Shown: positions 1 through 64,000 of the stretch, in pieces
Numbering within the stretch: position 1 is the stretch's first letter
How the letters are laid out: the number at the start of each line of letters is the position of its first letter
Assembly (NCBI GenBank): GCA_027604185.1
Contig: JADGKB010000010.1
Location: 169,578-233,577, forward strand
Direction: 5' to 3'
Length of the DNA: 64,000 bases
Source: Boothiomyces macroporosus
Lineage: Eukaryota > Chytridiomycota > Chytridiomycetes > Rhizophydiales > Terramycetaceae
Notes under the pieces: generated by a model
Databases searched by the model: none
Told to the model about the DNA's origin: nothing
What the model saw: the letters and a program-made list of their open reading frames with translations, nothing else
Made by a program: the position numbers and the translations under genes

Positions 1-838
1 TATAATCGGTAATTGGGTTCAAGGTCTTGCCCAATCTCTAAAGTTTGCACCAAACCTCGCTTTAAACACTACCTGTTCTGCCTGTGCCAGTTCAATGATT
101 AGTGCAATTGGAAATACCACAGCAACCTCTAGTATTGCTCCTGCATTAAGCAACTTTTTGAATAACTTGGCTCAATTCTGTACTAGTGCCTCAAATGCCT
201 TTGCAATAGATTATGCTGCAATGTCTCAGCAATGCGCACAGGCTGTAAATGCAAGTGGTATTGCAATTGCATCAACTTGTTTCCCATCTACAAATTATAA
301 CGGTGCTGTCATTCCTCCAGATTCACTTGGCATCCTTTGCGGTAGTGACTGTGGAAAAGTGCTCACTACTTCTGCGTCAAACATTAACCAAATTTGCGCT
401 TCTCAGGTAATCGCTCAATTTGGGCAATCTAACCCTATTACTGGATCTCAAATTGCAGGTTTTGTTGCCGCGTTAACTGGGTTTTTGTGCACTACAGACC
501 CAACCAGCAACAACGACTATTGCATTCAAACTTTCCCAAGTGAAGCTGCCAAAGAAGGTTTGAAATAGCTGACACTAGTCTTTAGTTTACTGCTTCCAAA
601 TGGGTACTACTCCCTTCCTTGTTCATCTTGCGGTTTAGCAGAAGCTGTTGTGCTTCAAAATAATGCCCAAGTGTTAGGTAGTGAGTTTGGAGCACTTGGC
701 GTGTTATGGCAGCAGCAATGTAAACAAGTAAACTCCCCAGCAACCTCCACTTACGGCCCCAACCCTACCGTAAGCCCTAAATCTGGTGCAAGGGGATTGA
801 CCCCGCTATTAATTCTGATTCCGTTAGTTTTCCTCTAA
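1..838 (+). CDS. 3' part of secreted Cys-rich GPI-type protein (cut by window start)
   Basis: The window starts inside this gene; the complete copy is at 52158-54494, where it is described. The coding parts here are 1-557 and 579-838, joined over a 21-nt intron (558-578) that begins GTTTGA and ends ACTAG with a CTGAC branch-like site. The fragment covers the last Cys module and the hydrophobic C-terminal tail. A 39-nt intron (540-578) would also keep the frame; I prefer 21 nt because it fits the size of every other intron here. Confidence 0.85.
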
Positions 839-924
839 TATATTCGTTCATCGGTACTCTTTGTAAATATCTTTACGCCACACAAGGTGATTTTGAGAGA
901 TATTATTCTTTGCTTTTCAAAATA

Positions 925-1932
925 ATGAAGATTAAAATCCCAGCGTCCACTGCAAACCTTGGACCTGGATTCGACGTAATGGGTGCTGGTCTATCTCTAT
1001 ACCTCGAATTAACAGTCGAAAAATCAGATATCACCACCATCTCTTATAGCGGACTGGGAACAGTTCCATTGGATCCAAAGGATAATTTCATATGTCAGAT
1101 TGCTGTTTATGTTGCCAATGCGTTTAATAGGACTTTGCCTCACTATAAACTACACATCAATAACCCAATTCCGTTAGGGAGAGGTTTGGGATCATCTGGA
1201 AGTGCAATTATTGGAGCAATTGCTATGGCTGATCAGTTACTAGGATTAAAGCTATCCAAACAGGAAATACTTGACTATGCGGTAATTGTTGAAGGACACC
1301 CCGACAATGTCGCGGGTTCACTTTTTGGATCATTTGTTACTTGCTTTGTTAGATGTCCACTGCCAAAGTGGAACGATGATTGGTGTGTAGCTGGAAGTAA
1401 AGTTCCAACACCAATGTCTCTCTTGCAGGAACACAATGTTATTGGCACTCATTTGACCCAGGTTACTCCTTTAAAAGTGAATCCCGCAATTAAATGTGTT
1501 GCAATCATTCCAGAATTCACTTTGCTAACCTCTCTAGCTCGCTCAGTGTTGCCGGATTCATACAGCAGACAAGATATTATTTTTAATATGTCCAGATTGA
1601 ACACGCTTACATTCGCAATTGGGGCAGAGCATGTCGAACATCAAGTAATTTATGAATCTATGCAAGATAAAATTCATCAGTCCTATCGTGCGCATCTTGT
1701 GCCTGGATTATCCACGGTCTTGCAATTAAATCCAACAACGTGTCCTGGTCTAGCTGGCATATGTTTATCAGGAGCAGGACCAACTGTCCTAGTTTTGGCT
1801 ACAGATAACCTGAATGAAATCGGAACAACAATTGTTGAAATGTTCAAAAATGAAAAAGATCAGAATGGAAATGCCATCGAATCGAGATATTTGATTTTGG
1901 ACTTTGACAAGTCTGGATTGGTGATTCAATAA
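925..1932 (+). CDS. THR1: Homoserine kinase
   Basis: Homoserine kinase phosphorylates homoserine with ATP to O-phosphohomoserine in threonine synthesis, in the cytosol. The 335-residue protein opens with the GHMP-kinase N-terminal motif PASTANLGPGFD. It carries the ATP-binding loop PLGRGLGSSGSA near residue 90 and the C-terminal GHMP motif LSGAGPTVL near residue 285. The length is close to yeast Thr1 (357). I start at the ATG of MKIKIPAST; an in-frame TTG lies 15 nt upstream but is not needed. The gene is intronless, unlike most neighbours. It follows the secreted Cys-rich gene by under 90 bp on the same strand. A second identical copy is at 54581-55588. Confidence 0.96.
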   Translation: MKIKIPASTANLGPGFDVMGAGLSLYLELTVEKSDITTISYSGLGTVPLDPKDNFICQIAVYVANAFNRTLPHYKLHINNPIPLGRGLGSSGSAIIGAIAMADQLLGLKLSKQEILDYAVIVEGHPDNVAGSLFGSFVTCFVRCPLPKWNDDWCVAGSKVPTPMSLLQEHNVIGTHLTQVTPLKVNPAIKCVAIIPEFTLLTSLARSVLPDSYSRQDIIFNMSRLNTLTFAIGAEHVEHQVIYESMQDKIHQSYRAHLVPGLSTVLQLNPTTCPGLAGICLSGAGPTVLVLATDNLNEIGTTIVEMFKNEKDQNGNAIESRYLILDFDKSGLVIQ

Positions 1933-2316
1933 ATGATTCGTACAGTTGCCTGTCATATTCTCATTTACTGTTGGTGGTTGGCTAACTTGATTCCTGTTTA
2001 TTTAACAATTATGCACTCTCTGGCAATCAGATTGCCTTGGGTTTGGAGATGTCAGTAAATAAATGATTTGGCATTGGTAAAACTTGTGAGAATCTCATTT
2101 AAAGTACCGGATAACAAAATACTCTGGAAGGTTGAAGGTAATATTTACTACATACTGGGCGGATTTTTCGAATGGATATTATCACGTATCTATGAATGGC
2201 ACTTGCTTTGCAATCGCATCTCTAATAAAGAGTGAGTACTTGTAGAACATTGGGCCTCAATTTGCCTTGGATAATTGATGATGACGATATTTTTCATTAT
2301 CAAACAAAAATAATAT
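1933..2316. other. Intergenic, homoserine kinase to first seven-helix gene
   Basis: These 384 bp hold only short chance ORFs. The stretch directly before the ATG at 2317 is very AT-rich and probably the promoter of the membrane-protein gene. I see no RNA gene. Confidence 0.5.
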
Positions 2317-3111
2317 ATGGATATAGCAGCAAAAATTATACTAGGCACTTCTTTTATATCCTCCATTGTGGTTATTGCGATATATTCGCAGGCAGTGTAT
2401 ATTGGAAAATTCATATACCGATGTATCTTGGTTGTTCAAACAGTACAGTTACTGGGTATAGTCTTTACCGCTTATTTCTTGTTATATTACCCGGTTCCAT
2501 TCTATCTGGAGGGGTTGCGGTCGTTCGTAGCTGACTTTGTGGTAAGGATCTAGTAACACAGACATATGGGATAGTCTACATTGACCTGCATACACTTGAG
2601 ATATTCGGAATATTGAACCCTAAACTGCAAAAAGCCTGGATTGCTTATGCTAGATGGGCTATAGTCATTTGCGGATTCATAGTGGAATTCTTGTACAACA
2701 TTTATATCTGGAATACGCAATTGGAGATTCTCAACCAGGTAAGACTCACTAAAGTAGGTTTCCGTATATCTTTATATTGCTATAATTGTAGTTGCAATTT
2801 TCTATGTCAACTGGCAGGGGATCTACATTACACAACTAATTATACATTACAGGAAATTCAATTCTTCCCTCTCTCAAAAGAAAAGAAAGTTACTAGTCTA
2901 TAGTGTGGTAGCAATGCTGGCACTAGATTGGTCCGCAATATCATTTTATCTGTATGGCACTTTGGCACTTGAGGGCTATGACCATGATAAAGCAAGTGCG
3001 ATTTGTCTGGGACTTAGTGGCATGCATTGCGGGCTCGCTTCATTCATGTTTTCGCAATTCAAGGACCTGGCTACCAAAGAAATGAATAGTACTATTGTAT
3101 CTAAAAAATAA
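2317..3111 (+). CDS. Seven-helix membrane protein, family member A
   Basis: Exons are 2317-2541, 2562-2738 and 2758-3111, separated by introns of 20 and 19 nt, giving 251 residues. About seven hydrophobic segments can be seen, the N-terminus looks external and a short polar tail follows the last helix, a GPCR-like layout. Family landmarks are H-TLEIFGIL at the end of helix 3, LDW in helix 6, and the G-H-C-G...FSQFKDLA signature at the end of helix 7. These landmarks recur in members B and C directly downstream and in D and E at 46431-48376. Alignment with B fixes the splice sites, since ADFV-TYGI matches ADFVVYGI exactly across the intron. I do not recognise the family by name. A receptor role is inference from topology and clustering only. 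Second copy: 55973-56767. Confidence 0.85.
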
Positions 3112-3141
3112 ACCATTGTGTCTCCACGTCATTATTTCTAC

Positions 3142-3962
3142 ATGTCTGATCAACTAGCAAAAATTACGATGGCGGTTTCGTTTCTGTCTGCAGTAGCAGT
3201 AGTAGCGGTATACAGCCAGAAAGAATATCGGACAAAGTTTGTTTACAAGTGGATGCTTTTGACGCAAATTGTTCAAATGATTGGTGTGCTCTATCTCGTG
3301 TATATTCTATTATCTTATCCGATTCCCCAATTCAGTATGGTAATAAGATCGTTTTTAGCAGACTTTGTAGTGGTACATAATTTCTAAAAAGTATGGAATC
3401 ACAATGATTGAATTGAATAGCCTGGAAATTTTTGGAAGCCTGGATCCGCGTATAAACAAACGGTACATTTACTATACAAAGATCGTTGTCACTGTTATTT
3501 TCTTATTTTGCGAAGTAACTTATGATATGTACATCTACACCAATGACGAGTTTACGGGAAATGTAATCTTTTTCTAACTAGCTTTCAAACTTCTCATACA
3601 TGGCGGTACTAGGATGTGGCATTATGTATTCTACAGTGCAAGGGGTCTATTTGACATTTTTGATAAACAAGCATAGAGTATTCATAACCAGCCAGTCAAA
3701 AGCACAAGTCAGAGCAGTTCTTGTATCAATTGCAGTGATGGTATCTTTAGATTGGGTAGCACTATGCGGTTATATTTACAATTACCTGAATTTCTCTGGG
3801 TACCAGTATGAACAAGGCAGAGCAATCACAGTATCCCTTGGTGGTTGGCATTGCGCGTTGGCTGCATATAATTTTAGTAAATTCAGGCTTTTAGCTACGA
3901 GAGACCTGAAGTCAGACGACGCAGCGAATCAAAAGAAGCGCACCGAAGAGACCAAGAAATAA
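3142..3962 (+). CDS. Seven-helix membrane protein, family member B
   Basis: Exons are 3142-3372, 3392-3562 and 3582-3962 with two 19-nt introns, giving 260 residues. Both introns sit where the introns of member A sit, so A and B arose by tandem duplication after intron gain. Landmarks are NSLEIFGSLDPRI, LDWVAL in helix 6 and GGWHCAL...FSKFRLLATRDL at the end. The C-terminal tail is charged (KSDDAANQKKRTEETKK) and presumably cytoplasmic. Only 30 bp separate it from A, so the two may share control or be co-regulated. The function is unknown and a receptor or sensor is only inferred. Second copy: 56798-57618. Confidence 0.85.
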
Positions 3963-4055
3963 ACTTTGAATAAACTGAATATTCATTTTGGAGCGTGATT
4001 TGGATACTCACTATTTGTTTGTCTACCCAATGTGATATTTTGTTTCTCCACGTCA

Positions 4056-4965
4056 ATGAACGCACAATTCATTCAGTACAGCACACTAACAGTACTCATC
4101 CTTACTATCTTGGCAAGTACAGCAATAATAATAAAATACCTAATTCAGAATGACATCAAACAACCAATCATCCGGTACATTGTTGGGCTGCAATTTGCCA
4201 ATCTAATTGGCTGCGCACAACGAATAGCTTATTACAATACATATCCTAAAGATGCGATTAATTTCCTTGTTCAGGGAATATGGATTCAAATCATTACGAT
4301 TGGAATTTGTTTTGTGCATTTGAAAACGTTGGAGATATTTTCAATCTTGGATACTCGTATAACCGAAAAGGGCATCAGGCTGGTATTCATCATTATTGTT
4401 GCTGTATACGCTATTTTTATCAGTACTTTTGTCTACCAGTACTATGTAGAAAGCCCGCTACTAGCAGCAGTAAGCATTTCTTATGTAGGTCCTCTCTGTT
4501 TCATTTGATACCTGGCTAGCACTCCTCATATTTACATTCAACGCTCAGATGTTTTACATTGCATACCTCATTTACAAGCACTTGACTCAGCTAACAGTAA
4601 CCACGAATTTGAGACTTAAAGTACTAATTTACTCGTTACTAGGTACATGCGGTCTGAATTGGTTCACGTTTTTTGTATTCCTAGAATCTAAATATGACCG
4701 GCAAACGTTAATGTCAGCTCAGCTATACGATATCTCGTGTGCCATGATGGGACTGCATTCAACAATCTTGTCACTGCTGTTTGATCAGTTTAAAATATTG
4801 GCGTTGCGTAAGAGAAGGCAGGTTCCGCTGGAAACGACAGCTGCAGAAAAAGTTGAACCATCTGGGCTGACTGTACATACACCAGTGGTAAAAGAAGTCA
4901 AGCCTGCGCTAAATTTATTGGGCGAATCGATCGTCGTAAATTCGAATAAATACTCGAATCCTTGA
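4056..4965 (+). CDS. Seven-helix membrane protein, family member C
   Basis: Exons are 4056-4469 and 4489-4965 with one 19-nt intron, giving 296 residues. The landmarks are KTLEIFSILDTRI, LNWFTFFVF in helix 6 and GLHSTIL...FDQFKILALRKRR at the end of helix 7. It has kept one of the intron positions and lacks the equivalent of the first intron of A and B. The cytoplasmic tail (about 50 residues) is longer than in A and B. The start is the ATG of MNAQFIQYS; an upstream in-frame codon exists but gives no better signal. Second copy: 57712-58621. Confidence 0.85.
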
Positions 4966-6238: not shown

Positions 6239-7563
6239 ATGAGTACTGTCAAAGTATTTCATTTTTTACATAGGAACAATTAATAAAGTGGGCCACTGCT
6301 CTCACTTCATTTGATCAGGGCAACTACAAGCTATCCCTAGTGCAGTTCCAAGAATTTGCAGACATTTCCAAATTGCACTTTAACGTAGGAATGGTTGCAA
6401 TGAAGTTGAAAGACAGCGAAGAAGCTGTAAGTTGTTGCTAATTCTAGGTTGCTGCTTTTAACAGGGCCATTCAGTGCGACCCTTTTCTTGCTGCTGCTTA
6501 CTTTCAAAAGGCGGCGATTTATTATTACGCAGATGATGTAGAAACAGCTTTAGAATGCTATCAAGACTGCTACGATAGACTTCGCTCAAACACCTTCATC
6601 AACTATACCCAGCTGGGTTTAGACTACACTCTACATGCTGCTCATATTATTTTCAATTTAGCTCTATGTTTCTTGGTACTTGGAGATGAAGGCAGGGGAT
6701 TAAAGTACTTTAACGAGGCTCTTGATTTAGCAAGTCAGTCCGAAACAAAACCAGATACCAGTAAAATACAAGAAGCTCTTCGTTTGGGATCCCAAGCGCC
6801 ATCAAAGATTTTGCCATATGAAATTCCAGACACTACTGTGTATCGTCCTCAAGAAGACAACATTAAGAATGCCAAAAAAGTAAATTATTTGGGAACCGCT
6901 ACTGTCGTTGCTGCCAATAGTGCAAATGACAATTTCGACGGGTTCTCTGGAAGACAAGTCAAGGAAATGACACTTGGCAGAAACTACAGACAAAAGAACA
7001 AGCAAAGTCCTATGCCAGCTTTGCCAACGACCATTCCTGAAGACGTTCAAATTAACGCTACACTTACAAGAAGAGCCCCAACATTACCTAAAAGCAGCAA
7101 CTCTAATATAAGACAAAGAAGCAGTTCCGTTGGTGCAAAGCCAAATTATATCAATTTGGATGATGCCAAAGAACGCAAGCCAGTTCAAATTACTCAGCGA
7201 AGATCCTCATTATCACAAAATGAACCTTATGAAAGAAGACCTGGGTTGGCTGCCGAATCCCCTAGATCAGACGCATCTGGGATCTCTATACCTAATGATA
7301 TGGTAATTTTCAATTAACATCAGATCCGTGTAAAAGCTACCTTTAACGACACCAGAATGATTCTTGTTCCTGATGATGTTATATATGAGGAGCTGCTTGA
7401 ATTTGTTCGCAAAAAGTTCAAGAACCAAGATTTGTTGATTAAATTCCTTGATGAATCAGGACAAAAGTGTGTAATGTCGAATGATGACGATTTGAACGAA
7501 GCCATAGAAACTGCACCTAATCCTGCAAAACTGGACATTTGGTGTTTTGTACCTTCATATTAA
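6239..7563 (+). CDS. noxR: NADPH oxidase regulator (p67phox-like, NoxR)
   Basis: NoxR activates fungal NADPH oxidases together with Rac at the membrane. Exons are 6239-6253, 6274-6426, 6448-7302 and 7324-7563, separated by introns of 20, 21 and 21 nt, giving 420 residues. Residues about 5-170 form the p67phox-type TPR domain (ALTSFDQGNY, DISKLHFNVGMVA, AVAAFNRAI, AAYFQKAAIYYY, DYTLHAAHIIFNLALCFL). A Ser/Arg-rich linker follows. The last 80 residues form a PB1 domain starting IRVKATFNDTRMIL and containing the acidic SNDDDLNEAI stretch. The first exon codes only five residues. There is no SH3 domain, as in other fungal NoxR. Identification rests on the TPR and PB1 order and motif match. Second copy: 59895-61219. 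Confidence 0.9.
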
Positions 7564-8707: not shown

Positions 8708-9787
8708 ATGAATCAATACAATATACTCGAAAAAGTAAATTGCAAATTAAATAGATTGGCGAGGGAGCGCATGGAGTTGTGCTCAAAGCTACTTTTGTAA
8801 AAACTGGAGAAATCGTAGCGTTGAAAAAAGTACCTCTAAGAAAAGTAGCTTTGATTTAATTTAGCTTGAGAATGGGATTCCCACGACCATAATCAGAGAA
8901 ATCAAAGGTAGGCGGATTTAATATAGCTTTGGAGCAGCTTAATCATCCCAACGTTGTATTATTGCGCGAAGTGTTTCCGTCTGGCACTGGATTTGTTTTA
9001 GCTTTTGAATACATGCTGTCCGATTTGGCTGAAGTCCTCAAAAACGGTGTTGCACCATTGACTGAACCACAAATCAAGACTTACATGCTGATGATATTGA
9101 AGGGAATAGCTTATTGCCATTCCAACAAAATCATGCATAGAGACTTGAAACCGGCAAACTTGCTGATATCTCCAAACAGAATACTGAAATTGGCTGATTT
9201 TGGACTTGCCAGAGTGTGTAATTTGGAAACTGCTAGACCTTATTCTCACCAAGTTGCTACAAGGTTTTCATTTTTTTACAAAGGTGGTACAGAGCACCAG
9301 AGTTGCTCTATGGTGCGAGAAAGTATGACTTTGGAGTGGATTTGTGGGCAGTAGGATGTATATTTGGGGAACTATTGAATCACTCTCCTCTCTTTCCAGG
9401 ACAGAACGACATTGATCAGTTATTCAGTGTAATTTCTGTGCTGGGCACGCCAACAGTTGAATCTTGGCCAGTAATATTGATTAACTAGAGGAGCTGGAGA
9501 ACCTTCCGGATTACAACAAGATTCAATTTCCAACTACAAAAGGAGTCCCTATCCAAACTATTTGCCCTGATGCAAGCAAAGAGGCAGTAGCACTACTGGA
9601 AAAGTTTTTGATTTATCAAAGCAGCAAAAGGATATCTGCTAGTGAAGCGCTACTTGATTCCTATTTTTTCAACAAACCGCTTCCCGCTCATCACCTAGAG
9701 CTGCCTCTGCCAAAGAAACAGCCCAAAGAGCAGTTTGACACTGACCAACCACTGGATTGGAGACTGTTTTTCAAAAAGCAGACCTAA
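8708..9787 (+). CDS. CDK20: CDK20/CCRK-type cyclin-dependent kinase
   Basis: Exons are 8708-8734, 8755-8844, 8865-8907, 8927-9263, 9284-9470 and 9491-9787, with introns of 20, 20, 19, 20 and 20 nt, giving 326 residues. Kinase landmarks in order are GEGAHG (Gly loop), VALKK (ATP-binding Lys), [10 protein letters not shown] (catalytic loop), DFGLA, VATRWYRAPE (T-loop), and LPDYNKI plus [11 protein letters not shown] at the end. CDK20-specific features are LSDLAEVL and the matching C-terminal tail; human CDK20 is 346 residues. In animals and Chlamydomonas this kinase acts in cilium or flagellum assembly and length control. Its presence suggests a flagellated stage, which is inference. The last acceptor must be used as CTAGAG for the frame to hold. 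Second copy: 62364-63443. Confidence 0.92.
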
Positions 9788-12749: not shown

Positions 12750-13214
12750 TTAAACAGTAGTGATTAATTTTTCGTTGAGAGTTTGAACCTCCTTTAGTAC
12801 TTCGTCATATGTATCTTGATAATCAGCATCCTTTTTTGTGACAATCATAACTACACTGGTTGGTCTTTTTGTTGACCCAGCAGATCCTAAATCTTCTTTT
12901 GATGGTACATAAACGTATGGAATATTTGCGTCTTCACAAAGGACTGGGACATGTGTGATTACATCAATTGGTGAAATATCACCTGCAATTACTACGATAC
13001 TAGCGTTAATGTCTGATTACCCTTTGGCTCCTTTTCTTAATCCTTTAACAACTTCCTTTACACCACGTTTAATTGATTTCGATTTCTCTGCCTTCTTTAC
13101 GACTTTTAAAACTTTTTTGTTCAACTTTTTTGATGCCAATGGGTGTGCGATTTCATTTACTGATTCCAATCTCTTTTCATATGAAGTTTCTTCTTTTTCT
13201 TCCTTTTCTCCCAT
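12750..13214 (-). CDS. NHP2: H/ACA snoRNP protein Nhp2
   Basis: Nhp2 is an L7Ae-family core protein of H/ACA snoRNPs, which pseudouridylate rRNA in the nucleolus. Minus-strand exons are 13214-13021 and 12999-12750, with a 21-nt intron, giving 147 residues (yeast 156). Typical motifs are the basic stretch IKRGVKEVVKGLRKGAKG, then VVIAGDISPIDVITHVPVLCE, IPYVYVPSKEDLG and a C-terminal helix. The intron falls in the KGAKG-IVVIAGD junction, which homology fixes. A telobox-like motif (13251-13263) lies about 40 bp upstream. It sits at the edge of the gene desert. Confidence 0.95.
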
Positions 13215-13263: not shown

Positions 13264-13497
13264 CTGAAACAGTCTGTCAAAAATGGAATGAAATTTTGAG
13301 TAATGGGAGTCATACTACACTATTTGTAGATGCGGAGGTGACTATTTTTCCATTAGGTTGGAATTTTCCGTCCACTGTTGGAATCATGTTTGATTTGAGA
13401 GAGATGCATTTTGTATTGATATTGCTACTGAAGAGAAATAGATTGATAGATTTGGGTTAAATTTTTTAATCTATACGCGTTCATGAGCAGTAATTAG

Positions 13498-15696
13498 ATG
13501 TTAAGCATAGACTGTACCGCACCAACAATTAATTTATTGATTCCACCAGATATTGTATTCGCATTAGGACCCAATATAATCACACGACAGTTTCCATTCT
13601 CTGTACTGACTGTCTAAATTAGGTTGTGTCAGGCTGTCAACCTGCGATTACGCCAAGTTGCCAAATAACCACCAATAATCCTAATATTACTGTAACAAAT
13701 GGTGTGGTCTCTATCTACCCTTTTGCACCCATCGGTTCTTACAACGGCACGATAAATTGTACTCAGGCATCCACATCTGTAATTCAGAACACGACCTCCT
13801 ATTACTACTCCTATCAAACGTTTGCATTCTTTGTAGTAAACCCAACAGACTTGGAATACAATCCTCCAGCGACTGTCCTAACCTTACCAGACTGTATCAA
13901 TACTTACCTATCGCGTTCAACGATAAATTTCACAGATAATGGAGATACCACACCAAGAATGCTTTTAATTACAACTTCCGCTTCTGACAACAGTGATTTG
14001 ATAATTGGACCTTCCAATCGTAGTTGGTTACCTAGTTCGACTTTTACTCAGGAGGATATTGACAATTCTTTGGTCTATGTTTCCCCAGTGCAATTAACCA
14101 AAGTTGATAGCTCAAAAACTTCAAACTTTCCAGCGAGAGTAATAGATCCTGCAGGCACAGCACTGAATGTAAATTTTCAATTCATTTTTCAATATTACTA
14201 CTGTCTGAACGTTATCTCAAATGCTGCTTATGTTGTTAGTTACCAACAAATGCCAGTTATTGTCACAGCAGATATTCTGGGATTGGCTGAATCCCACGGG
14301 TTGAGTGTTTGGGATACCAAATGGATTACCCCAAGTGTGAGTGCTGGAAGATTGGAGTGGTATTGCCCTGACCAATATTGCAATGGGCCAGGATGGCAGC
14401 AATTTACCTCTGTTTCTACCTTCCCGCACTCCTGGTTTGTAATAAATGGTATACGCTGGAATCCATTAGGCTCACAGATTGGTGTAAATTCGACAATCAC
14501 TATAACATCGGTGAACCAAACAGTCACTCAAACACCTATAACAGTCAATATCATAACATCAGTTTCGACTACTAATCCAAATACTGATTCTGTACCTCTC
14601 CCTTATCAAAATTCTTTGTTTGGTAACTGCCAAGTAATGACTTTGACTCAAATTGGGGCGAGGATTACAGGTAGTTTGCCTTTTGGACCATTTAACCCGA
14701 TTTCCCCCATTAGACCGATATGTGCTTCAATTACTAGCTCTTCTACCCCTACAAAGGTTGGAGACTTTGTTGTTTCATCGACAACTCAACTTACAGTTAC
14801 TATATCTGGCTCTGTGATACTTGGATCAGACCTGGTACTTCCTAAAGGGTTTACCGTGCTGACCTTTACAGGGCTATCTTCAAAAATTGGACAGATATAT
14901 CAAGCATTCTACTTGAAAATCGATCCATCGTATACTTACCAACCTGTAACGGTAGTGTTACCACAGATTAAATACCCGCTCAAAGTGCCACTTCAAAATA
15001 CAGGGCAAATTGCGATCCTGCGATACGATGCTGATACTGGGCTCATGTCTCACATTGCTGCACAGTCATATATAAATGATAACAGCAAACAACCTCTATT
15101 ATCAATAAGTGCATCTTTCCCAGATTCAAATTACTATATAGTGGGTTATATGGACTATTCCTCTGGAATTCTACCAATTCAACCAGGGCAGTGGATAAGT
15201 TATTTAACAAGTTATGGTACCCTCAAGTTGAAAATTAATACTTACAACATGGTGATGCTCTTTTCTTGCGATGTTAATACCAGATTTGCAATAATGCCTG
15301 CACCAAACATTCTTTGGACACCTGACGGATATACTGCAGTGCAGACTTTTACTTTAGTAGGAGAATGGAATACAGGAAACAAAGTCTCAATTAAGCTGCT
15401 AGCAGGAAGTCAAAATTCAAACATTTTTTGGGGGTAGTTATTTTTAATCTAGAACTTTGCTAAACAGTCCTTCTTATCCTTCTGGATTCAACTGGAACAT
15501 ATCCTCTACTCCATCATTCATTAATGATGGTTTATATTTTGATAATTCATCAGCAAAGTATGTAGTTCAATTGACTTCGCAAGGGGCTGGAACTTGGGGA
15601 ACGTTCCAGCAAAGTTCCAGGATTATAGCCGCGAGTGGGGAGCGCAAGATTGAATGCTCTCTTCTTAGTCTACTGATTCTCATTTTGAATATATAA
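13498..15696 (+). CDS. Large secreted or surface protein, GPI-type tail, family unknown (paralogue 1)
   Basis: Exons are 13498-13602, 13623-15433 and 15453-15696, with introns of 20 and 19 nt, giving 719 residues. The protein is rich in Ser, Thr, Asn and Pro with scattered Cys and many N-glycosylation sequons. A central module has WDTKW...EWYCPD...GIRWNP...SPIRPIC. The end is a polar stretch followed by LLSLLILILNI, which fits a GPI-attachment signal. The C-terminal half aligns with the next gene. No signal peptide is evident at my start, so one or more 5' exons are probably missing from the model; I could not find one that splices cleanly. The function is unknown; a cell-wall or surface role is inferred. 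Confidence 0.7.
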
Positions 15697-19392: not shown

Positions 19393-21023
19393 TTAGAATT
19401 TTGTGGATCGTGACAGATTGGTTTTGATACCGGTAAGTTCTCCCTGGTATTTAGACAATTTCGATTTATCAACAGCAACTCTACGGACAGAGGTCAATTT
19501 CTTCTTGGCGGCATCATACTTCATACGTTTCTTTACACGAGGGTTTCTATTTTCTTTCTTTCTGTATGGAGTTAGTCCACGATTAGCAAGTATCTTGTAG
19601 GTTGCTTTACGTTTAGTGTCCATATCAAGGTCCTCTTCAGGAGCAGGCTCTTCCATAGGTTTGTGCAATTCTGCATGAAGCTCTTCTCTTTCTTCCCTGC
19701 GTTTGCGTTTCAAACTCTTTACTTCCTCATAGTAATCATCCGAGCCTTCTTCCTCTTGGTCTATTTCATTATCAGAGAGTTTTCCATATATCTTTTCAGT
19801 TTCATTAAGATATTGTTCATCTTCTTCTTCGTCGAAAGCAGGCTCAGTCTTTGGTTGAAGTTTTGCATTGATTTTGCTGTATAGTTTCTTATCCAAAAGA
19901 TTCTAGAATTAACATAAAGTACTTGATCAACTCTGTTGACATGGAATTGCAAAGATTTCTTTTGTCTAATTTTATCTTCAAGGTCAACTTCTGCAATATC
20001 TTCACCTTCACCAAACAGGCCTGAAGCGTTCTTTTTCTTCTTTTTGAGTGGAATATACGGTTGATATTCCTCAATAGCCGCGTCGGATTCTTCTTCTGAT
20101 TCTTCAACAGCACGCTCTTGCTCTTCCTCTTCTTCAGAAGACTGCGCTGAAATATCTTCTTGTTCAACCAGTTCATAGTCCTCTTCAATGGATTCCTCTT
20201 GATCCTCATCCACAAGCTGCTGAGATTTTGATACAAGCGCTTCAAACTTTTTCAAATGGTCAATGGCAGGATGTGTAGTTCTGGTATTTGTTTCTGAAGC
20301 AGCCATTGCCAAAAAATATGCCAAATTGGCCAAGTAAAGATATTTCAAGAAAAGTACTTCGTCCCTTTCTCCCTCATTTTGCAGTTCGCTCCAGATGACT
20401 GAGAATTCCTTCTGATACTTTAATATATCAGGCATATTCTTTTTCAATAGCCGCATTTGCTCCTTGACTGAGAGGTTGGACAGATTAGGCTGAATTACTT
20501 CTGCTTCGTCCAAATTGAATTCTTTTCTTTCCACAGATTTGAGTTTGTTTTTGATGAGATTCTCAAAATTGTCGTCCAAGAAATCTTGCTCTTCAAAAGT
20601 TTCCACTTGCTTCTTTTGCAATCTTAGAGCTTCCTGCTCCTCTTCCTTCGCTAATGTCAACTTTCAATTACCTTCATCATCCGTGGCTTCATCAGAGACA
20701 TAGTAATCGTTTCTGGACTGTCCCCAGCCGTCCTCCTCTTCGTGCTCCTCTTCGTCATCAGATTTAGGCTCAAGGAAGTGTCTATTATGTGCTTTAAACT
20801 TTTCCAACAATTCCTCTTCTTCTACAGAGTCTTCGTCATAATCCATGCCAAATACTTCTTGCTCACTTTCTTCATCTCGTTGATATCTGTCATCCAGAGT
20901 AATCATTTCGGACTGATCTTGGAATTCATCTTCTGAATTTAAATCCAGGTTATTTAAATCGGCTTTGGTTTCAGTGTATTCCTTTGGCGGTGCTGGCTTT
21001 CTAGATTTTCTCTTTCTGGCCAT
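19393..21023 (-). CDS. SAS10: U3 processome protein Sas10/Utp3
   Basis: Sas10/Utp3 is part of the small-subunit processome that matures 18S rRNA in the nucleolus. Minus-strand exons are 21023-20672, 20650-19923 and 19902-19393, with introns of 21 and 20 nt, giving 529 residues. The N-terminus is highly acidic. The middle holds the Sas10/C1D-type helical domain (around PDILKYQKEF and YLANLAYFL). The end has the diagnostic Sas10 C-terminal domain KRKATYKILANRGLTPYRKK followed by NPRVKKRMKYD. It starts 160 bp from eL37 on the opposite strand, so a bidirectional promoter probably coordinates the two. Confidence 0.95.
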
Positions 21024-21718: not shown

Positions 21719-22431
21719 TTAGTATGGGATAACAGTCCCATCACGGCCAAAGAATTTTCCACTGTTGGATTCGCCAAGCTTTTCTACTACTTGCACCATC
21801 AAAGCAACAGAGTCATGAGCAGTAATATCTCCATTTCCACTAGTCATTCCTGTTTGAACAAACCCAGGGTGAATCGCTCCAACAGAGATTCCTATTATCA
21901 AATTCACTTACCTTTAGGTTTTAAATCAATCGCTAATCCTTTAGTAGCCATGTTCAATGCGGTTTTTGACATGCGGTAGCCATAATACTTTCCAGAACCG
22001 TTGTCTTCAATTGATCCCATTCTGGAAGTGATGTTAACGACCTTAGAGCCAGGTTTCAAGTAATCCAATACTGCTCTAGTAGTCAAGAGAGGCCCAAGTG
22101 TGTTTACGGTGAATTGCTGGATTGCCATTTCTCGAAGCTTATTGTCACCAAGGTTGTCAGAGTACAGCATTCCTGCATTGTTGATTAGCAAGTCGATTGA
22201 TTCGACACCAAGGGATTTCAACTTGCTTGGCAATGCGTCAATTGAGCTTTCATCCCCAGTGTCCAACTGTAAATGTTGGGAAATCGGGATGATTGCAGCC
22301 AGCTCTTGCACCTGCGCATATGGAGTCCTTGAGGTAGCAAAGACCTTGTATTGCTGTTGGACATAGTGCTTTACAAACTCCAATCCAATCCCTCTATTGC
22401 CGCCGGTAATTAACACAGTTTTTCCACTCAT
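21719..22431 (-). CDS. Short-chain dehydrogenase/reductase (C-factor-like)
   Basis: Minus-strand exons are 22431-21912 and 21891-21719, with a 20-nt intron, giving 230 residues. It has the Rossmann motif TGGNRGIG near residue 10, NNAG near residue 90, a catalytic Ser in ITSRMGS and YRMSK as the YxxxK pair. The end GKFFGRDGTVIPY fits C-factor-type single-domain SDRs. It should use NAD(P)H to reduce a small carbonyl compound; the substrate cannot be told. No targeting signal is seen, so it is probably cytosolic. Confidence 0.9.
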
Positions 22432-22843: not shown

Positions 22844-23987
22844 ATGAAAAAACCACTATCCATAGAATGCTCCTCCACAGTATTCGATATTGCGTTCCAT
22901 CCACTATCAAATATCATTTGCGCAGGAACTATTGAAGGACAAATAGACTGGTATGGTACCGCTAATTAGTTTTACTTTCAACGAGAAATGCGAACCACTT
23001 TTTTCAGCTCATCCCCACCAAGAATCATGCAGATCATTGGATTTTAATGCTGACGGCTCCGGATTATTCACTGTGTCGAAGGACAGATCGCTTCAGGTAG
23101 ATTTTTATTCACAGAGTTAATTGATATCGAGACTCACAAAATGATTCTGAGAAAAGTTAAGGCTCATAGTTCACCAATCAATAAAGTACGCTATATATCA
23201 GAGAATTTAGTTGCGACTGGAGATGATGCGGGATGTGTAAAAGTAACAGATTTTAATGCAGATTTGGGATATTCGTACTAGAAAGCTATCTCTGAAATTC
23301 AAAGAAAATCAGGACTACATTTCCGACATGTACTATGTGGGCGAAAAGAATACACTCTTGGCTACATCTGGCGGAGGATGTCTTAGCGTGTTTGACGTCC
23401 GAAAAGACAAGCCAATTGCTGTGTCAGCGAATCAGGATGATGAGTTGCTTTCGGTTGTAGTCGTAAAGGTAATCTTTTTTTAACGTAGAACAACAAAAAA
23501 GCAGTAATAGGCACTCAATCTGGAACTATTTTACTGTTTTCTTGGAATGACTGGGGAGATTGCACTGATAGATTCCCAGGTAACTCGTTATAACTTAGGC
23601 CATCCAATGAGTGTTTCTTCGCTATGTAAATCAAACGAAACTACTGTCTATACTGGCTCTAGCGATGGAATAATTAGAGCAGTTGGAATACTTCCCAATC
23701 AATTACTTGGAACAGTTGGTGATAACGGAGATATGCCAATTGAAGCGCTAAAACTATCAAGCGATGGTAAATGGCTTGCTAGCTGCTCTCATGATGAAAC
23801 CGTAAAGCTCTGGGAGGCAGATATCACTGCTTTGGACAACGAAGTATTTGGAGATGAATTGGAAAAAGATTCTGATGACTCTGATTATGATATGCCTGCC
23901 AAAAAGAAGCACAAGAAAACGAAAAAAGCCATTGGCAATGAAAGAGGGAAAGCATCTGCCAAAGCTTTCTTTGAAGATCTTGATTAA
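22844..23987 (+). CDS. JIP5: WD-repeat protein WDR55/Jip5
   Basis: Six exons (22844-22950, 22970-23096, 23117-23242, 23262-23468, 23489-23579, 23599-23987) with introns of 19, 20, 19, 20 and 19 nt encode 348 residues. WD repeats fill most of the protein; WDR55-type signatures include AHSSPINKVRYI, ATGDDAGCVKIWD, GTQSGTILLFSWN and TGSSDGIIRAVGILPNQLLG. The tail is acidic then basic (AKKKHKKTKK), as in Jip5. The family works in nucleolar ribosome assembly. Splice sites are fixed by continuity of WD motifs; one intron must end CACAGAG. It fits the ribosome-biogenesis theme of the region. Confidence 0.93.
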
Positions 23988-42357: not shown

Positions 42358-43369
42358 TTATTGAGTAGGCGCGTAAAGTGCTTCATTGGTTACGACTAGT
42401 TCATCCAATTCTGGTGATAAATCAGAAAGTGCTTCGAAACAAGCCTTGTGGTATTGAAGTTGAATTGCAACTAAATCTGCCAAATTTCTCAATACTTTTC
42501 CATTTTCAACAACCAATTTCATCTTGCCCATAGCTTCATCAACTGCAGCAACAAATTCATCTTCAGCAGCAACCATTTCGGCACGAACTTGCTCTTGCTT
42601 TGGTGGAGCAGCAGACTTGAGGCGGGCACGGCAAGAATCATAAGTTAAACGACAAGATAAAACGTTACGACGTGATTTCTACGGTTAAATTCGTAATACA
42701 AGTGCATCTCCAATAACTGTATCCAAATCATTAACTAATGGAACACAAAATCTGCGAACCGCATCTTGATCTTGTTGTAATCTAGCATTTCCCATCTTTT
42801 CTTCAGTAGCAGCGAATTTCTTTAACGCGGCGCCTGTCTTCAGTTACAATTTACCTAGCGGTTCATCAGCACCAATCAATTCCGCACTTTGGAATGCTGA
42901 TTTAGCAAATGCGTGTGATAAAGAAGGTGGAGTTTCTTGATGGGTTGGTGCGCTGGAAACATTTTCGGTTGACCCAGACAATTTTTGGGTCAAAGAAGTG
43001 GCATTTGCTGTAACTACAGAAGCAAAGTCGCTTAATTTGTCATTCAATGGTGGTACATAATCGTAATTTGGAGTGGAATAGTTCTTTCCGACTTTGAGCA
43101 ACAGTTCGTTTACTAATTTCACGCGGTCGACTCTCTAAAGTCAGTCGGAATTACTTCTTCTAATTGGCGATACTCGGCTGGTAATTCGGTGACATCTGCT
43201 GTTCCTCCAATCTTTTCCTTTGCAAACTAGTGTTAGCCAAGGATACTTGAGAGACTTGAACCCACTGCTTGCCAACGTTATCTCCTAATGGTTTGAGGGA
43301 AGTGGTGAAGCTTGAAAATGCGGAAGATAGAGCTGAAGTAGCTGCAGAGAATTGTTCTTGAGCGGACAT
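42358..43369 (-). CDS. BAR-domain protein (GVP36-like)
   Basis: Minus-strand exons are 43369-43247, 43226-43155, 43134-42855, 42833-42700 and 42678-42358, with introns of 20, 20, 21 and 21 nt, giving 309 residues. BAR-type features are FAKEKIGGTADVTELPAEY, LEERVDRVKLVNELLLKV, KMGNARLQQDQDAVRRF and a long helical C-terminal half. Such proteins form curved dimers that bind or shape membranes; yeast Gvp36 acts at the Golgi, in endocytosis and at vacuoles. The exon joins restore a continuous coiled-coil-like protein, which supports all four introns. Confidence 0.88.
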
Positions 43370-49168: not shown

Positions 49169-51680
49169 ATGGGTGTAACGAAAAAACATGCCAAGGGAAG
49201 ATTAGATAAATTCTACCACTTAGCAAAGGAGCAAGGTTACAGAGCCCGCTCCGCATTCAAACTGATTCAATTGAACAAGAAATACAACTTTTTAGAAAAG
49301 TCAAAATGCGCTATTGACTTGTGTGCAGCACCGGTACGAATTGACTAACGCAGGGTGGGTGGCTGCAAGTGTGTGTCAAGTACATGCCAAAACCAAATAT
49401 AATTATCGGTGTGGATTTGGAAAAGATTAAACCAATACCGGGAGTAATAACGCATGTTGAAGATATCACAACACCAAGTTGTAGAACTACAATTAAAAGA
49501 GATTTAAAGACTTGGAAAGCCGATGTGGTAATGCATGATGGTGCCCCTAATGTGGGTGTTTCTTGGGCACAGGATGCTTTCACTCAGTCAGAGTTGACCT
49601 TGTCTGCCTGCAAATTGGCTACCGAATTCCTAGTTCCAGGTGGTACCTTTGTTACGAAAGTATTCAGATCCAAAGATTACAATAAGCTAATGTGGGTTTT
49701 TAATCAACTGTTTGGAAAAGTAGAGGCAACAAAACCAACTGCTTCTCGTAATGTCTCTGCGGAAATCTTTGTTGTTTGTAGAGATTATTTGGCACCTAAA
49801 AAGATTGATCCAAGACTCTTGGATCCAAAGTTTGCTTTCAAGGAAATGGATGACCAAGTACCTGAAGAAGAGTCCCTAAAGAAAATCAAGGAAAAGCAAG
49901 GTGCTGTGTTGAATGACTTGTTTCATCCTGAAAAGCGAAGAAGACAGAGAGAAGGTTATGAAGATGGAGACTATACGTTGCATGTAAAGAATGATTTGGC
50001 TGAATTCATAAAGAGCCCGGATTTCCTAGGGATTCTTTCCCGCTCTAGTGCTTTTGTCTTTGGAGAAGATGAATTCAGTCAGAAAATCAAGAATAGCAAA
50101 TTGACTACCGAAGAAATTCTTGAGTATCTGTCAGACCTCAAAGTTTTAGGGAAAAAGGAATTTAAACAACTTATCAAATGGAGAGACTCTGTCCGAGTGA
50201 TGATGGATTTGGTTCCTAAAAAAGTAGAAAAAGTCGTTGAAGAAGAGCCGGAGGAAGAAATGGATATTGAAGATATCATTCAAAACGAAAAAGAAACTAT
50301 GGAACAAAAGATGCGCAAGCTAAAAAAGAAACAACGAGAACGAAAAGCCAAGCAATTGCTAAAGCTGAAGCTTGGTATGGAGACTCCTGCAGATATTGGT
50401 ATAGAAGGACAAAGCGATATGGGTGCACTTCCTGATATTGATTTTGGAGAAGAGGAAACAAAAGAGCATTTGAAAGTCAAGAAAGAAAAAGAACAAGCGA
50501 TTGAAGAAGAGGATGATGAATCTGTGTTTGATGATTCAGATGATGAATTGGAGCGTAAAATTGGCAGGTTGGATGCTGAAATGGATACCTTGTACGAGCA
50601 GTATGAAAAGATAAAGCTTGAAAAGAACCCCAGTGCCAAAGTCAAGAAAGTCAAGGAAGCATCCCAGGCATTCGAAGAGTGGTATGGACTGGAATCTGAC
50701 AAGAAAATTAAATCCAAAAGCAAAGAAGAATACAACTCAGATATTTCTGATTCTTCCAGCTCGGAAGATGAAGGAGAATTAAGCCTTCCAGCCAACAAAA
50801 GACCGTTTGAAGGTGAAGAGCCATTATCCAAAAAAGCGAAATTGTTCTTTGACAATCCTATTTTCGAATCTACAAAAGACAAGTTTGAAGACAGTTTATT
50901 TGATGATGAGCTAGTAATGAAGCCAAAAAAGACCAAAAAGAAAAAGACCGAAGATTTGGACTCTGACGAAGAGAAAGAATCCAAAGGATTTGAAATTGTA
51001 CCATTAGAAAAAGACATGGAAAGACCAGAATCTGATGATGAATCCGATGGTAAATTTAGATTAAGATAGGTGGAAATATCATTGACTCTGCAGCTGCATA
51101 TACTCTAGCTCAAAAAATGGTTACAAAGTCAGGAAAGAGAGATTTGATTGATGATTCGTTCAACAGATATGCCTTTAATGATCCTGAAGATCTTCCAGCT
51201 TGGTAAAATTCGTTAATGTAAGGTTCATGCAGGATGAAAGTAGACACAACAAGCCGACAATGCCAGTTACCAAAGAAGCAGTTGAAATCATGCGTCAACA
51301 GATGAGAGCATTAGATGCCCGCCCAATAAAGAAGATTGCTGAAGCAAAATGGAGAAAACAATTACGTACCCAACGCAGACTGGAAAAAGCAGCAAAGAAA
51401 TCAGAAGGTTTAGCCAACCAAGAAGATTTATCAGAGAAAACCAAACTTGAACAAGCTAGTAAAGTAATGTCCAAGGCAAAATCCAAAGGCAAATCCGAAA
51501 AGCCACAAGTCAAGGTTGTTGTAGCTAAAGGAGCTTACCGTGGTGTGCAGGGTAGACCTAAAGGTGTCAAGGGCAGATATAAGGTAATTTCTATTAATGT
51601 AGATGGTTGATGGTACAATGAAAAAAGAAAAGAGAGCTTTGAAACGAAAAGAGCAGAAAAACAAGAAAAGGAGAAAGTAG
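49169..51680 (+). CDS. SPB1: Nucleolar 2'-O-ribose rRNA methyltransferase Spb1
   Basis: Spb1 methylates the ribose of the 25S rRNA A-loop during 60S assembly. Exons are 49169-49333, 49354-51049, 51070-51202, 51223-51583 and 51603-51680, with introns of 20, 20, 20 and 19 nt, giving 810 residues (yeast 841). The FtsJ-type domain has [13 protein letters not shown], the AdoMet loop DLCAAPGGWLQ (split by intron 1), [21 protein letters not shown] and NVSAEIFVV, giving the K-D-K-E tetrad. A long acidic and coiled middle and the conserved C-terminus (RYNAF-like [35 protein letters not shown]) follow. The last exon codes only 25 residues. Confidence 0.96.
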
Positions 51681-56767: not shown

Positions 56768-56797
56768 ACCATTGTGTCTCCACGTCATTATTTCTAC

Positions 56798-61219: not shown

Positions 61220-61568
61220 ACTGTACTTTAATCATTTTTCTTTCTCGTCGTGTAAATAGTTTCTTTCACTGAATTAATCGGCTGAGCAAGCATCCTTAGT
61301 ACCCGACCCGTAAATATCTCTGGCGGATATTAATATATCCGTGTAATCAAATTATTGGTGGGCTCTTTAACGGACAATGGCTTTATATTCATGCCAATTC
61401 AATCAAAGCACTCTGGAAAAGATTTTCTTTGATGCTCTGTGTCTGGCTGGGGCCTTCTCTCCTTGAGAGACCGATCTTTCGCCACACACTTACGAATGAT
61501 GACATAAAATTAAATCCCAACCCCACAATAAATTATAATTGCAATGTCTCTTTTATTTTACAAATGAT

Positions 61569-61856
61569 TCAACTCTTTACAATGGCTTTTGCCACAGAAA
61601 AATACAACCCCATAGGTGAGTTTGGTTCCTTGCTCTCGGAAGCACTATCGCTAACTGGCGGCCTGATTTTCTTTGGCCTTCCCCTCCCTCTTTTAACTGG
61701 TATTTCCTTCTCTATAATCCGTTTTCGGTACAGCAAGCTGGAGGGTTTAGAGTGCAGTATAGCGTATACGTCTAGCTGAATAATTCCCATTTCTTCCTTG
61801 TTCAGAGGATCGACCGACAGTGATTTTACGGGAATTAGCTTTTTGCGACAAACCAT
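61569..61856 (-). CDS. Small AT-hook protein, second copy
   Basis: Identical to 7913-8200, TATA box included. Confidence 0.7.
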   Translation of the reverse strand: MVCRKKLIPVKSLSVDPLNKEEMGIIQLDVYAILHSKPSSLLYRKRIIEKEIPVKRGRGRPKKIRPPVSDSASESKEPNSPMGLYFSVAKAIVKS

Positions 61857-62363
61857 TTTTTGGGTTCATTAAACAGCAGTGATATTTATACTTGAGGTGC
61901 CACACATCATTTTGACTTGGATGGCCCATAAAAGGAAGAAATGTCTTTTGCCAACGGGCTTTGGGTCAAAAATGGGGCACTGAGGGGGTAAGAGATAGCT
62001 TTGGTGTAACCAAGTGACCTATGTCGTTCAGACACTACATTGCCTTACGAATGAATCAAACTCGCAAACCAAAACCATTAAAAATAAAAAAATTTAATAG
62101 CACCACGAAGCGAATGGGGATAAAATGGCTCCCTCTTGAAAGTCGCTTATCCGCCTTGTTTCTAGTTTCAAGCAACCCCTTGGACGGAAAAAATTTATTA
62201 AAAAGGTTTCATGTCCATTTTGAACAGAGGGATAACAAGCTCATCATCGGAAAGGAACCAATTTCCATTTCAGGCTGCTATACGCTATTTCTTTTAGCTT
62301 GGTTTTTTTAAAACATCCGTGCGCTTGAAATCACGCTCAAGCCCCTGAAAATCTCAGTAATCA

Positions 62364-63443
62364 ATGAATCAATACAATATACTCGAAAAAGTAAATTGCA
62401 AATTAAATAGATTGGCGAGGGAGCGCATGGAGTTGTGCTCAAAGCTACTTTTGTAAAAACTGGAGAAATCGTAGCGTTGAAAAAAGTACCTCTAAGAAAA
62501 GTAGCTTTGATTTAATTTAGCTTGAGAATGGGATTCCCACGACCATAATCAGAGAAATCAAAGGTAGGCGGATTTAATATAGCTTTGGAGCAGCTTAATC
62601 ATCCCAACGTTGTATTATTGCGCGAAGTGTTTCCGTCTGGCACTGGATTTGTTTTAGCTTTTGAATACATGCTGTCCGATTTGGCTGAAGTCCTCAAAAA
62701 CGGTGTTGCACCATTGACTGAACCACAAATCAAGACTTACATGCTGATGATATTGAAGGGAATAGCTTATTGCCATTCCAACAAAATCATGCATAGAGAC
62801 TTGAAACCGGCAAACTTGCTGATATCTCCAAACAGAATACTGAAATTGGCTGATTTTGGACTTGCCAGAGTGTGTAATTTGGAAACTGCTAGACCTTATT
62901 CTCACCAAGTTGCTACAAGGTTTTCATTTTTTTACAAAGGTGGTACAGAGCACCAGAGTTGCTCTATGGTGCGAGAAAGTATGACTTTGGAGTGGATTTG
63001 TGGGCAGTAGGATGTATATTTGGGGAACTATTGAATCACTCTCCTCTCTTTCCAGGACAGAACGACATTGATCAGTTATTCAGTGTAATTTCTGTGCTGG
63101 GCACGCCAACAGTTGAATCTTGGCCAGTAATATTGATTAACTAGAGGAGCTGGAGAACCTTCCGGATTACAACAAGATTCAATTTCCAACTACAAAAGGA
63201 GTCCCTATCCAAACTATTTGCCCTGATGCAAGCAAAGAGGCAGTAGCACTACTGGAAAAGTTTTTGATTTATCAAAGCAGCAAAAGGATATCTGCTAGTG
63301 AAGCGCTACTTGATTCCTATTTTTTCAACAAACCGCTTCCCGCTCATCACCTAGAGCTGCCTCTGCCAAAGAAACAGCCCAAAGAGCAGTTTGACACTGA
63401 CCAACCACTGGATTGGAGACTGTTTTTCAAAAAGCAGACCTAA
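62364..63443 (+). CDS. CDK20: CDK20-type kinase, second copy
   Basis: Six exons starting at 62364 (62364-62390, 62411-62500, 62521-62563, 62583-62919, 62940-63126, 63147-63443); identical to 8708-9787. Confidence 0.92.
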
Positions 63444-64000
63444 TAAATTATTTGACAGACAATATTGTGAATTTTTGCAGTAAAATTCAGCCCTTTTAAA
63501 TTGGTACATTAATAGAGTAGTATCTGCTACAGTCACAGCTGTTATTACATAAGCTCTCATGAGACTGAGCCAGATTTCACTAGAGTCAGTGTTTTCAAAA
63601 AGTGGGCTTTCTATAAAACGTTTATGAAAAGCAGAGAAAGCAGCCCTTGATCTACTTTATTTTGATTGTGCAGCCAACCCATGGAAAGCTTGAACTAATA
63701 GATTGTTGGTAAAGATCATATGTCTGAACGTTTTGACGGATACCCCGCGAAATTACGATTTGGTTACTCCTGTTATGGGTGATACGGTCAACACACTCGA
63801 TCATTTGACTGCAACTCAATCGAAAATGAATATCAATGGCTTCCGCAATTGATTCAACTCATTCTCTCATTATGCAAGATTGAGAATTCACCCTTTCTTC
63901 TATTTTTATCCTTTATTGAAGACTTAGTACTTGATAATGCAAGAGTTCTTTTTGTTGGACCATTCCTTTTGTACAGTATAAGTCTTTCCGTCTCCACCAG

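Follow-up and report, generated by a model that had tools for sequence, protein, structure and literature searches.

A 64,000-nucleotide (nt) stretch of the genome of the chytrid Boothiomyces macroporosus (G000:C10:169578-233577; hereafter, the window) raises the question whether the interruptions of about 20 nt, which a sequence-only reading had placed throughout its genes, are genuine introns, how widespread they are, and what removes them. The analysis described here indicates that they are very probably U2-type spliceosomal introns of the nuclear genome, reduced to about the minimum length on which this spliceosome can act.

The assembly consists of 15,203,306 bases in 216 contigs. Given that the end of the window, which is also the contig end (positions 53657-64000), is an exact copy of its first 10,344 bases (1-10344), only 53,656 bases of the window were used for genome counts, together with 20 further loci, each 10 kb long and located on other contigs; this sample of 254 kb represents 1.7% of the genome. 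The duplicate, along with identical stretches around the Cwc25 gene that are also found on C49 and C100, is probably due to assembly redundancy. Because the answer must not be built in, the gene model was given no preference for intron length; it was derived by unsupervised expectation-maximization (EM) from no more than codon statistics, the GT and AG ends and a flat prior on length. This coding-based model is blind to introns in untranslated regions (UTRs), and its range extends up to 500 nt. The product of the SPB1 gene as spliced by the model, with four introns of 19-20 nt removed, is 810 amino acids long and 100% identical to the deposited protein of B. macroporosus (Chytridiomycota, Rhizophydiales, Terramycetaceae), which bears out the earlier claim that the host is a fungus; the next relatives are Terramyces sp. 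JEL0728 (91%), Globomyces pollinis-pini (70%) and Gorgonomyces haynaldii (61%). A short 18S rRNA pattern had no match, and the species name is based on the identity of this protein.

Intron lengths across the genome

Among genes with a score of at least 25, the model assigned lengths of 18-23 nt to 270 of 294 introns, the commonest being 20 nt (n=108), 21 nt (n=77) and 19 nt (n=52). When the range was opened to 10-500 nt, 294 of 334 introns fell between 18 and 23 nt, none were found at 10-17 or 24-27 nt, and the remainder were scattered; the proposal that ultrashort introns are the rule is upheld by both counts. In one comparison, the total model score was 8058 with free lengths, 5962 with 28-300 nt and 3521 without introns; in another, it was 7571 with 18-23 nt only, 5451 with 24-60 nt, 3789 with 10-16 nt and 3788 with 24-29 nt. 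Barring the 18-23-nt introns thus costs about 2,100 nats. In held-out halves of the data, these six of 141 possible lengths accounted for 85 of 143 and for 55 of 81 introns under a flat length prior; here the splice-site profiles from one half were used on the other but were derived from calls on the full data. EM with a flat start on half of the loci did not converge and yielded only 11 introns.

The same length class is apparent from a simple motif scan (GTA..YTAA, 2-3 nt, HAG), which produced a sharp excess at 19-22 nt both in the window alone and in the 20 loci. In the latter, the six peak cells (gap of 2 at 19-21 nt and of 3 at 20-22 nt) contain 168 matches, whereas the reversed sequence has 39 in these cells; up to 59 nt, no second length peak was seen by eye. 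A genome-wide pattern search with the +5 G version of the motif gave 41 sites against 20 in the reversed sequence, a weak excess because +5 G is not the rule in this genome. The density of the predicted introns is about 1.8 per kb of coding sequence, and the 268 introns in 254 kb would scale to roughly 16,000 in the whole genome. Taken as predictions, these results confirm that ultrashort introns are present genome-wide, far beyond chance expectation.

Introns of the window and comparison with homologs

The tally of 73 introns previously proposed for the window was not matched exactly: one run of the model gave 68 (60 of these 18-23 nt long) and a stricter run gave 51, from which four calls were dropped and to which the two units of a 39-nt double intron were added. 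The dropped calls are a RalGAP call considered below, two further RalGAP calls that receive no support from the Terramyces comparison (24430-24449 and 24458-24477), and an ambiguous one (31949-31969). Introns of 34-142 nt in the first window model were taken to be mis-parses. The resulting introns are listed below with the support for each.

6254..6273, plus: NoxR-like (TPR/PB1 protein) intron, 20 nt; gene model
6427..6447, plus: NoxR-like intron, 21 nt, within the TPR match; gene model, Pfam
7303..7323, plus: NoxR-like intron, 21 nt, at PB1 start; gene model, Pfam
8735..8754, plus: CDK intron, 20 nt; gene model, Pfam, PDB alignment
8845..8864, plus: CDK intron, 20 nt; gene model, Pfam; 3-residue gap adjoins the junction in the PDB alignment
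8908..8926, plus: CDK intron, 19 nt; gene model, Pfam, PDB alignment
9264..9283, plus: CDK intron, 20 nt; gene model; gapless against CDK7
9471..9490, plus: CDK intron, 20 nt; gene model, PDB alignment
13000..13020, minus: L7Ae family (NHP2-like) intron, 21 nt; gene model, Pfam
13490..13510, plus: intron, 21 nt; gene model
13603..13622, plus: intron, 20 nt; gene model
15434..15452, plus: intron, 19 nt; gene model
19903..19922, minus: intron, 20 nt; gene model
20651..20671, minus: intron, 21 nt; gene model
21892..21911, minus: short-chain dehydrogenase intron, 20 nt; gene model, Pfam
23097..23116, plus: WDR55 intron, 20 nt; gene model, Pfam
23243..23261, plus: WDR55 intron, 19 nt; gene model, Pfam
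23469..23488, plus: WDR55 intron, 20 nt; gene model, Pfam
23580..23598, plus: WDR55 intron, 19 nt; gene model, Pfam
24565..24584, plus: RalGAP intron, 20 nt; gene model; gapped against Terramyces
25152..25173, plus: RalGAP intron, 22 nt; gene model; gapped against Terramyces
25737..25756, plus: RalGAP intron, 20 nt; gene model; gapless against Terramyces
26042..26061, plus: RalGAP intron, 20 nt; gene model; gapless against Terramyces
26243..26261, plus: RalGAP intron, 19 nt; gene model; gapped against Terramyces
26450..26468, plus: RalGAP intron, 19 nt; gene model; gapped against Terramyces
26532..26551, plus: RalGAP intron, 20 nt; gene model; gapped against Terramyces
26641..26660, plus: RalGAP intron, 20 nt; gene model; gapped against Terramyces
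26779..26797, plus: RalGAP intron, 19 nt; gene model; gapless against Terramyces
26924..26944, plus: RalGAP intron, 21 nt; gene model; gapped against Terramyces
27259..27279, plus: RalGAP intron, 21 nt; gene model; gapless against Terramyces
27410..27429, plus: RalGAP intron, 20 nt, GT..GG ends, normal branch spacing; gapless against Terramyces, 9/14 identical
27658..27678, plus: RalGAP intron, 21 nt; gene model; gapless against Terramyces, 14/14 identical
27769..27788, plus: RalGAP intron, 20 nt; gene model; gapped against Terramyces
27872..27894, plus: RalGAP intron, 23 nt; gene model; gapless against Terramyces
27999..28018, plus: RalGAP intron, 20 nt; gene model; 7 extra residues in the Terramyces record
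28566..28585, plus: RalGAP intron, 20 nt; gene model; gapless against Terramyces, 14/14 identical
29905..29923, minus: intron of a hydrolase-like gene, 19 nt; gene model
30062..30080, minus: intron of a hydrolase-like gene, 19 nt; gene model
30444..30463, minus: first intron of the back-to-back pair, 20 nt; frame open only with both removed
30425..30443, minus: second intron of the back-to-back pair (39-nt double), 19 nt; frame open only with both removed
32970..32988, plus: intron, 19 nt; gene model
42679..42699, minus: BAR protein intron, 21 nt; gene model, Pfam
42834..42854, minus: BAR protein intron, 21 nt; gene model, Pfam
43135..43154, minus: BAR protein intron, 20 nt; gene model, Pfam
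43227..43246, minus: BAR protein intron, 20 nt; gene model
49334..49353, plus: SPB1 intron, 20 nt; gene model, deposited protein; gapless in 6/6 homologs
51050..51069, plus: SPB1 intron, 20 nt; gene model, deposited protein; gapless in 1/6 homologs (variable acidic stretch)
51203..51222, plus: SPB1 intron, 20 nt; gene model, deposited protein; gapless in 6/6 homologs
51584..51602, plus: SPB1 intron, 19 nt; gene model, deposited protein; gapless in 5/6 homologs
2739..2757, plus: candidate intron of a seven-transmembrane (7TM)-like gene, 19 nt; motif score only
3563..3581, plus: candidate intron of a 7TM-like gene, 19 nt; motif score only
4470..4488, plus: candidate intron of a 7TM-like gene, 19 nt; motif score only

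In all seven proteins tested (NoxR-like, CDK, L7Ae family, dehydrogenase, WDR55, BAR and SPB1), the Pfam match contains at least one junction. The alignment of the CDK with PDB sequences is gapless at four of the five junctions, a 3-residue gap adjoining the second, and the SPB1 alignment runs uninterrupted through three of four. When SPB1 was compared with six homologs, 18 of the 24 junction windows were gapless, and five of the six gapped ones map to a single acidic, variable stretch. The matches listed for RalGAP comprised at least five proteins, with no deposited Boothiomyces sequence among them.

Several tandem 7TM-like genes between positions 2300 and 5000, with the 19-nt candidates listed above, were missed by the gene model; an additional motif-scored segment in one such gene (3463-3481) was judged to be coding by eye. 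Between 33664 and 42298, inspection by eye revealed genes that encode cysteine motifs of a chitin-binding-like type as well as regions rich in Thr and Ser; their products are perhaps secreted wall proteins.

Intron architecture and the splicing machinery

Across the 268 introns, the 5' site contains A at +3 in 92%, A at +4 in 59%, G at +5 in only 16% (T in 44%) and T at +6 in 62%; the last exon base is G in 48%, and the AT content is 71%, compared to 61% in coding sequence. A YTRAY-like branch motif was detected in 262 of these introns, with the branch A mostly at position 14 (n=95) or 15 (n=110) and 5 nt (n=105) or 6 nt (n=104) from the 3' end, in agreement with the near-fixed architecture described in the sequence-only reading.

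Both the U2 RNA, represented by two genes, and U6 were found above the search cut-off; the two U2 genes retain GUAGUA, and U6 retains ACAGAGA. The U2 genes, located at loci L021 and L022, are divergent but share a common 5' core. The U1 candidate scored 68.8 bits, just under the cut-off of 69.5, and has the canonical 5' end AUACUUACCUG; thus, the usual +5 G has been lost from the introns without a matching change at the 5' end of U1. Five of the seven splicing proteins looked for are present, namely Slu7, Cwc25, Isy1, SF1 and U2AF65, the last with 230.7 bits, below the curated threshold of 310.3, probably because the gene is split. A loss of Slu7, suspected from the proximity of the branch to the 3' site, was ruled out when the gene was found. 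Given the presence of the small nuclear RNAs (snRNAs) and these five proteins, a U2-type spliceosome is the likely agent of removal.

As to whether the splicing genes carry changes matching the short introns, the picture is mixed: U1, U2 and U6 are canonical and Cwc25 keeps its N-terminal GGG plug (MGGGDLNLKKSWHP), but the N-terminus of Isy1, with the start read on the DNA, is MAPKTLAQKQE instead of MARN. A deposited Boothiomyces Isy1 is 98% identical to that of the gene model, and the record from Boothiomyces sp. JEL0838 begins in the same way. Among the Isy1 homologs listed, 71 of 120 begin with M[AS]R[NS], and many others, including that of Batrachochytrium salamandrivorans, begin at an inner Met. 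Among 16 aligned relatives, Globomyces, Kappamyces and Gorgonomyces also depart from MARN, with the proviso that the records of relatives are possibly wrong at the 5' end, whereas MARNEEKA is kept in Spizellomyces, Powellomyces, Fimicolochytrium, Chytriomyces and Polychytrium. The Isy1 gene itself (locus L029) apparently contains two 20-nt introns around a 1-nt exon or, alternatively, a 17-nt intron and a 4-nt exon; the JEL0838 record is without three residues at this site.

In introns of this geometry, the 5' site, the branch and the 3' site would be recognized jointly, as a compact whole, through intron definition, as previously proposed, which appears to be a sensible reading. In the released lariat, the loop would comprise about 14-15 nt and the tail 5-6 nt, and such a tight loop may be accommodated with the help of a relaxed N-terminus of Isy1 at the active site of branching. 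With no space for a polypyrimidine tract, the 3' end would be chosen mainly by its distance from the branch, so that a different NG, if suitably spaced, could serve as the end of a few introns. Intervening sequences of greater length would be tolerated mostly as chains of units of about 20 nt that are removed serially.

Apparent unusual ends and tandem introns, and alternative explanations

With other ends permitted at a cost, 267 of 280 introns were GT-AG; the GT..AG pattern described earlier has apparent exceptions of two kinds, three non-AG and two GC-AG introns. The 13 others comprise five GT-NG introns, two of them weak and one of these two an artefact, and eight more, of which two are GC-AG and six mixed, including several artefacts. 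In the mixed model, 12 introns lay outside 18-23 nt; they were re-read as seven ultrashort introns in disguise, four artefacts and one 38-nt case; the seven are the two GC-AG introns, the three non-AG introns and two back-to-back pairs (one mis-parsed). The GC-AG introns, 21 nt each, belong to a NUP98-like gene, identified by its FG repeats, and to a kinase in which the Pfam match spans the junction. The three non-AG introns, 20-21 nt long, seem to end in GG, CG or TG, with the final G and normal branch spacing retained. The junction in SMC2 aligns without a gap, and that in a cytochrome b5 gene is fixed by two neighboring intronless copies, a one-base slide being possible. Of these three adjacent cytochrome b5-like genes (locus L013), only one has a 20-nt intron at this site, an instance of presence versus absence that bears on the gain or loss of introns. 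Three other calls were discarded: GA-GC at locus L006, replaced by a nearby 19-nt GT-AG intron; GT-GG at 1350-1370 of the same locus, an artefact of the triple intron described below; and GC-TG at the start of MCM7, an artefact beside a double.

The 39-nt double of the window (20+19) had been considered the sole exception to the length rule; this does not hold, given that a triple was found in a METTL2-like gene (19+19+19, 57 nt in all; locus L006, minus strand) and another double in MCM7 (21+22, 43 nt). In these tandem blocks, the frame is open with the whole block removed and closed with single units removed. Alignment lends further support to the MCM7 junction. The METTL2-like junction reads NAWDNVEF, a motif not covered by the PDB alignment, which begins only at residue 50; the motif at the window double is VHGWFP, and Pfam gave no family for this protein. 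An origin of the units by recent duplication is unsupported, their likeness scores being reached by 62%, 36%, 5.8%, 36% and 36% of random pairs. An apparent double at locus L014 was rejected because its second half encodes YESLNQYG, in keeping with a DEAH helicase. In flies, recursive splicing at juxtaposed AG|GT sites divides very long introns; the doubles and the triple similarly have no exon between two sites, here with units of about 20 nt.

These features could be accommodated by a spliceosome that acts as a fixed ruler, spanning about 18-23 nt between the sites, using a G located 5-6 nt past the branch A even where it is not part of AG, and removing longer sequences only as modules of about 20 nt via a regenerated AG|GT; the loss of the Isy1 N-terminus would then be convergent with that in Stentor, make room for loops of 10-15 nt and perhaps extend to Globomyces, Gorgonomyces and Kappamyces. 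We regard this extended scheme as tentative and rather unlikely to hold as a whole.

Several observations weigh against the uniform picture outlined here. Only 8 of the 20 RalGAP junctions are gapless against Terramyces; of the 12 gapped ones, several reflect residues absent from the Terramyces record, one corresponds to 7 extra residues, and one is an 18-nt call (27134-27151) that is coding, with a matching LFTVLQ in the Terramyces protein. Of the 17 CCCH matches, none was recognized as U2AF35: 13 are other proteins as judged by eye, and four were assumed to lie in these genes or a duplicate. RED had no match in this genome, nor in any genome searched, which gives no sign of absence. On the minus strand of locus L017, an apparent 20-nt GT-AT intron (gain 8.9) is at odds with the NG rule, and the 38-nt intron at locus L007 may be a plain longer intron. 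Finally, although four adjacent pairs were accepted against 0.49 expected under uniform placement, this expectation ignores site preference, the sites not being uniform.

The alternative that survives best, to which we give somewhat less than even weight, is that no distance ruler is involved and that polymorphism, base errors or chance adjacency account for the non-AG ends and the tandem introns. The 254 kb contain three loci with tandem introns and three non-AG cases, the GT-AT case violates the NG rule, likeness between tandem halves does not exceed that of random pairs, the L014 double proved false, and two of the tandem junctions are placed by a protein motif; conversely, homology or neighboring copies fix all three non-AG junctions, where normal branch spacing and the final G are kept, and the MCM7 double is backed by alignment. 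That a sizeable class of longer, ordinary introns was missed by the gene model seems improbable. The 38-nt intron, the invisibility of UTR introns, the 500-nt bound and the size of the sample leave room for such a class, but of the 125 nats gained in the mixed model by allowing 10-400 nt rather than 18-23 nt only, about 119 come from three genes, which were re-read as containing 20-21-nt GC-AG or non-AG introns. It is very improbable that the segments are not spliced and reflect translational frameshifting, DNA-level elimination or assembly indels: splicing is predicted here from the DNA, but the GT..AG ends, the branch motif fitting an intact U2, the presence of snRNAs and splicing factors and the intronless neighboring cytochrome b5 copies all argue for it, and random indels would not produce a shared motif at a fixed length.

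Relation to known ultrashort introns and implications

Ultrashort spliceosomal introns are known from several other systems. Chlorarachniophyte nucleomorphs contain more than 800 introns of 18-21 nt (PMC10245619), the same length class and narrow range as here; nucleomorphs are extremely reduced relic nuclei, whereas the Boothiomyces introns belong to a fungal main nucleus, the assembly of which measures 15.2 Mb. Introns of the ciliate Stentor coeruleus are 15-16 nt long, and the Cwc25 plug and the Isy1 N-terminus are reported not to be conserved (PMC9505925). Stentor resembles Boothiomyces in the GT..AG ends, AT-richness, near-fixed branch A with a 5-nt tail, unconserved Isy1 N-terminus and presence of snRNAs, and differs in the position of the branch A (10-11, as opposed to mostly 14-15), in the absence of the Cwc25 GGG plug, which is kept in Boothiomyces, and in the last exon base, which is not usually G in Stentor. 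Mikrocytids have similarly uniform, extremely short introns of 16-17 nt (n=224), with 17-19 spliceosomal proteins found (PMC10245619); Boothiomyces differs in having many introns and all five splicing proteins named above. In Paramecium and Nyctotherus, introns of about 25 nt (PMC5014332) are likewise ultrashort as a rule but somewhat longer, and these organisms are ciliates. Among the matches listed in the open-access literature, there were no introns of such length in a fungus and no study of Boothiomyces introns; the available passages of a Rhizophydium genome paper mention introns once, as a program setting (PMC13391722), and those of a survey of 644 fungal genomes include two chytrid species in the density table (PMC8476143). 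Thus, the kind of intron is known and its setting in a fungus is new to the literature searched, whereas the ruler, the tandem introns and the Isy1 feature are leads.

That standard gene finders would break the majority of these genes remains a conjecture: the deposited SPB1 is exact and Isy1 nearly so, but the Terramyces RalGAP record (P0121) departs from the model at several junctions, which suggests tiny introns and annotation errors in Terramyces as well. Whereas earlier descriptions of ultrashort introns concern relic nuclei, ciliates and one group of parasites, such introns appear here as the rule in B. macroporosus, a saprotrophic and culturable chytrid with most of the core splicing factors that were looked for. 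The minimum geometry of splicing now becomes testable, including the size of the lariat, the choice of the 3' end, the role of U2AF without a polypyrimidine tract and any limit that Isy1 may set on the loop, and the gene sets of related chytrids may hold hidden errors.

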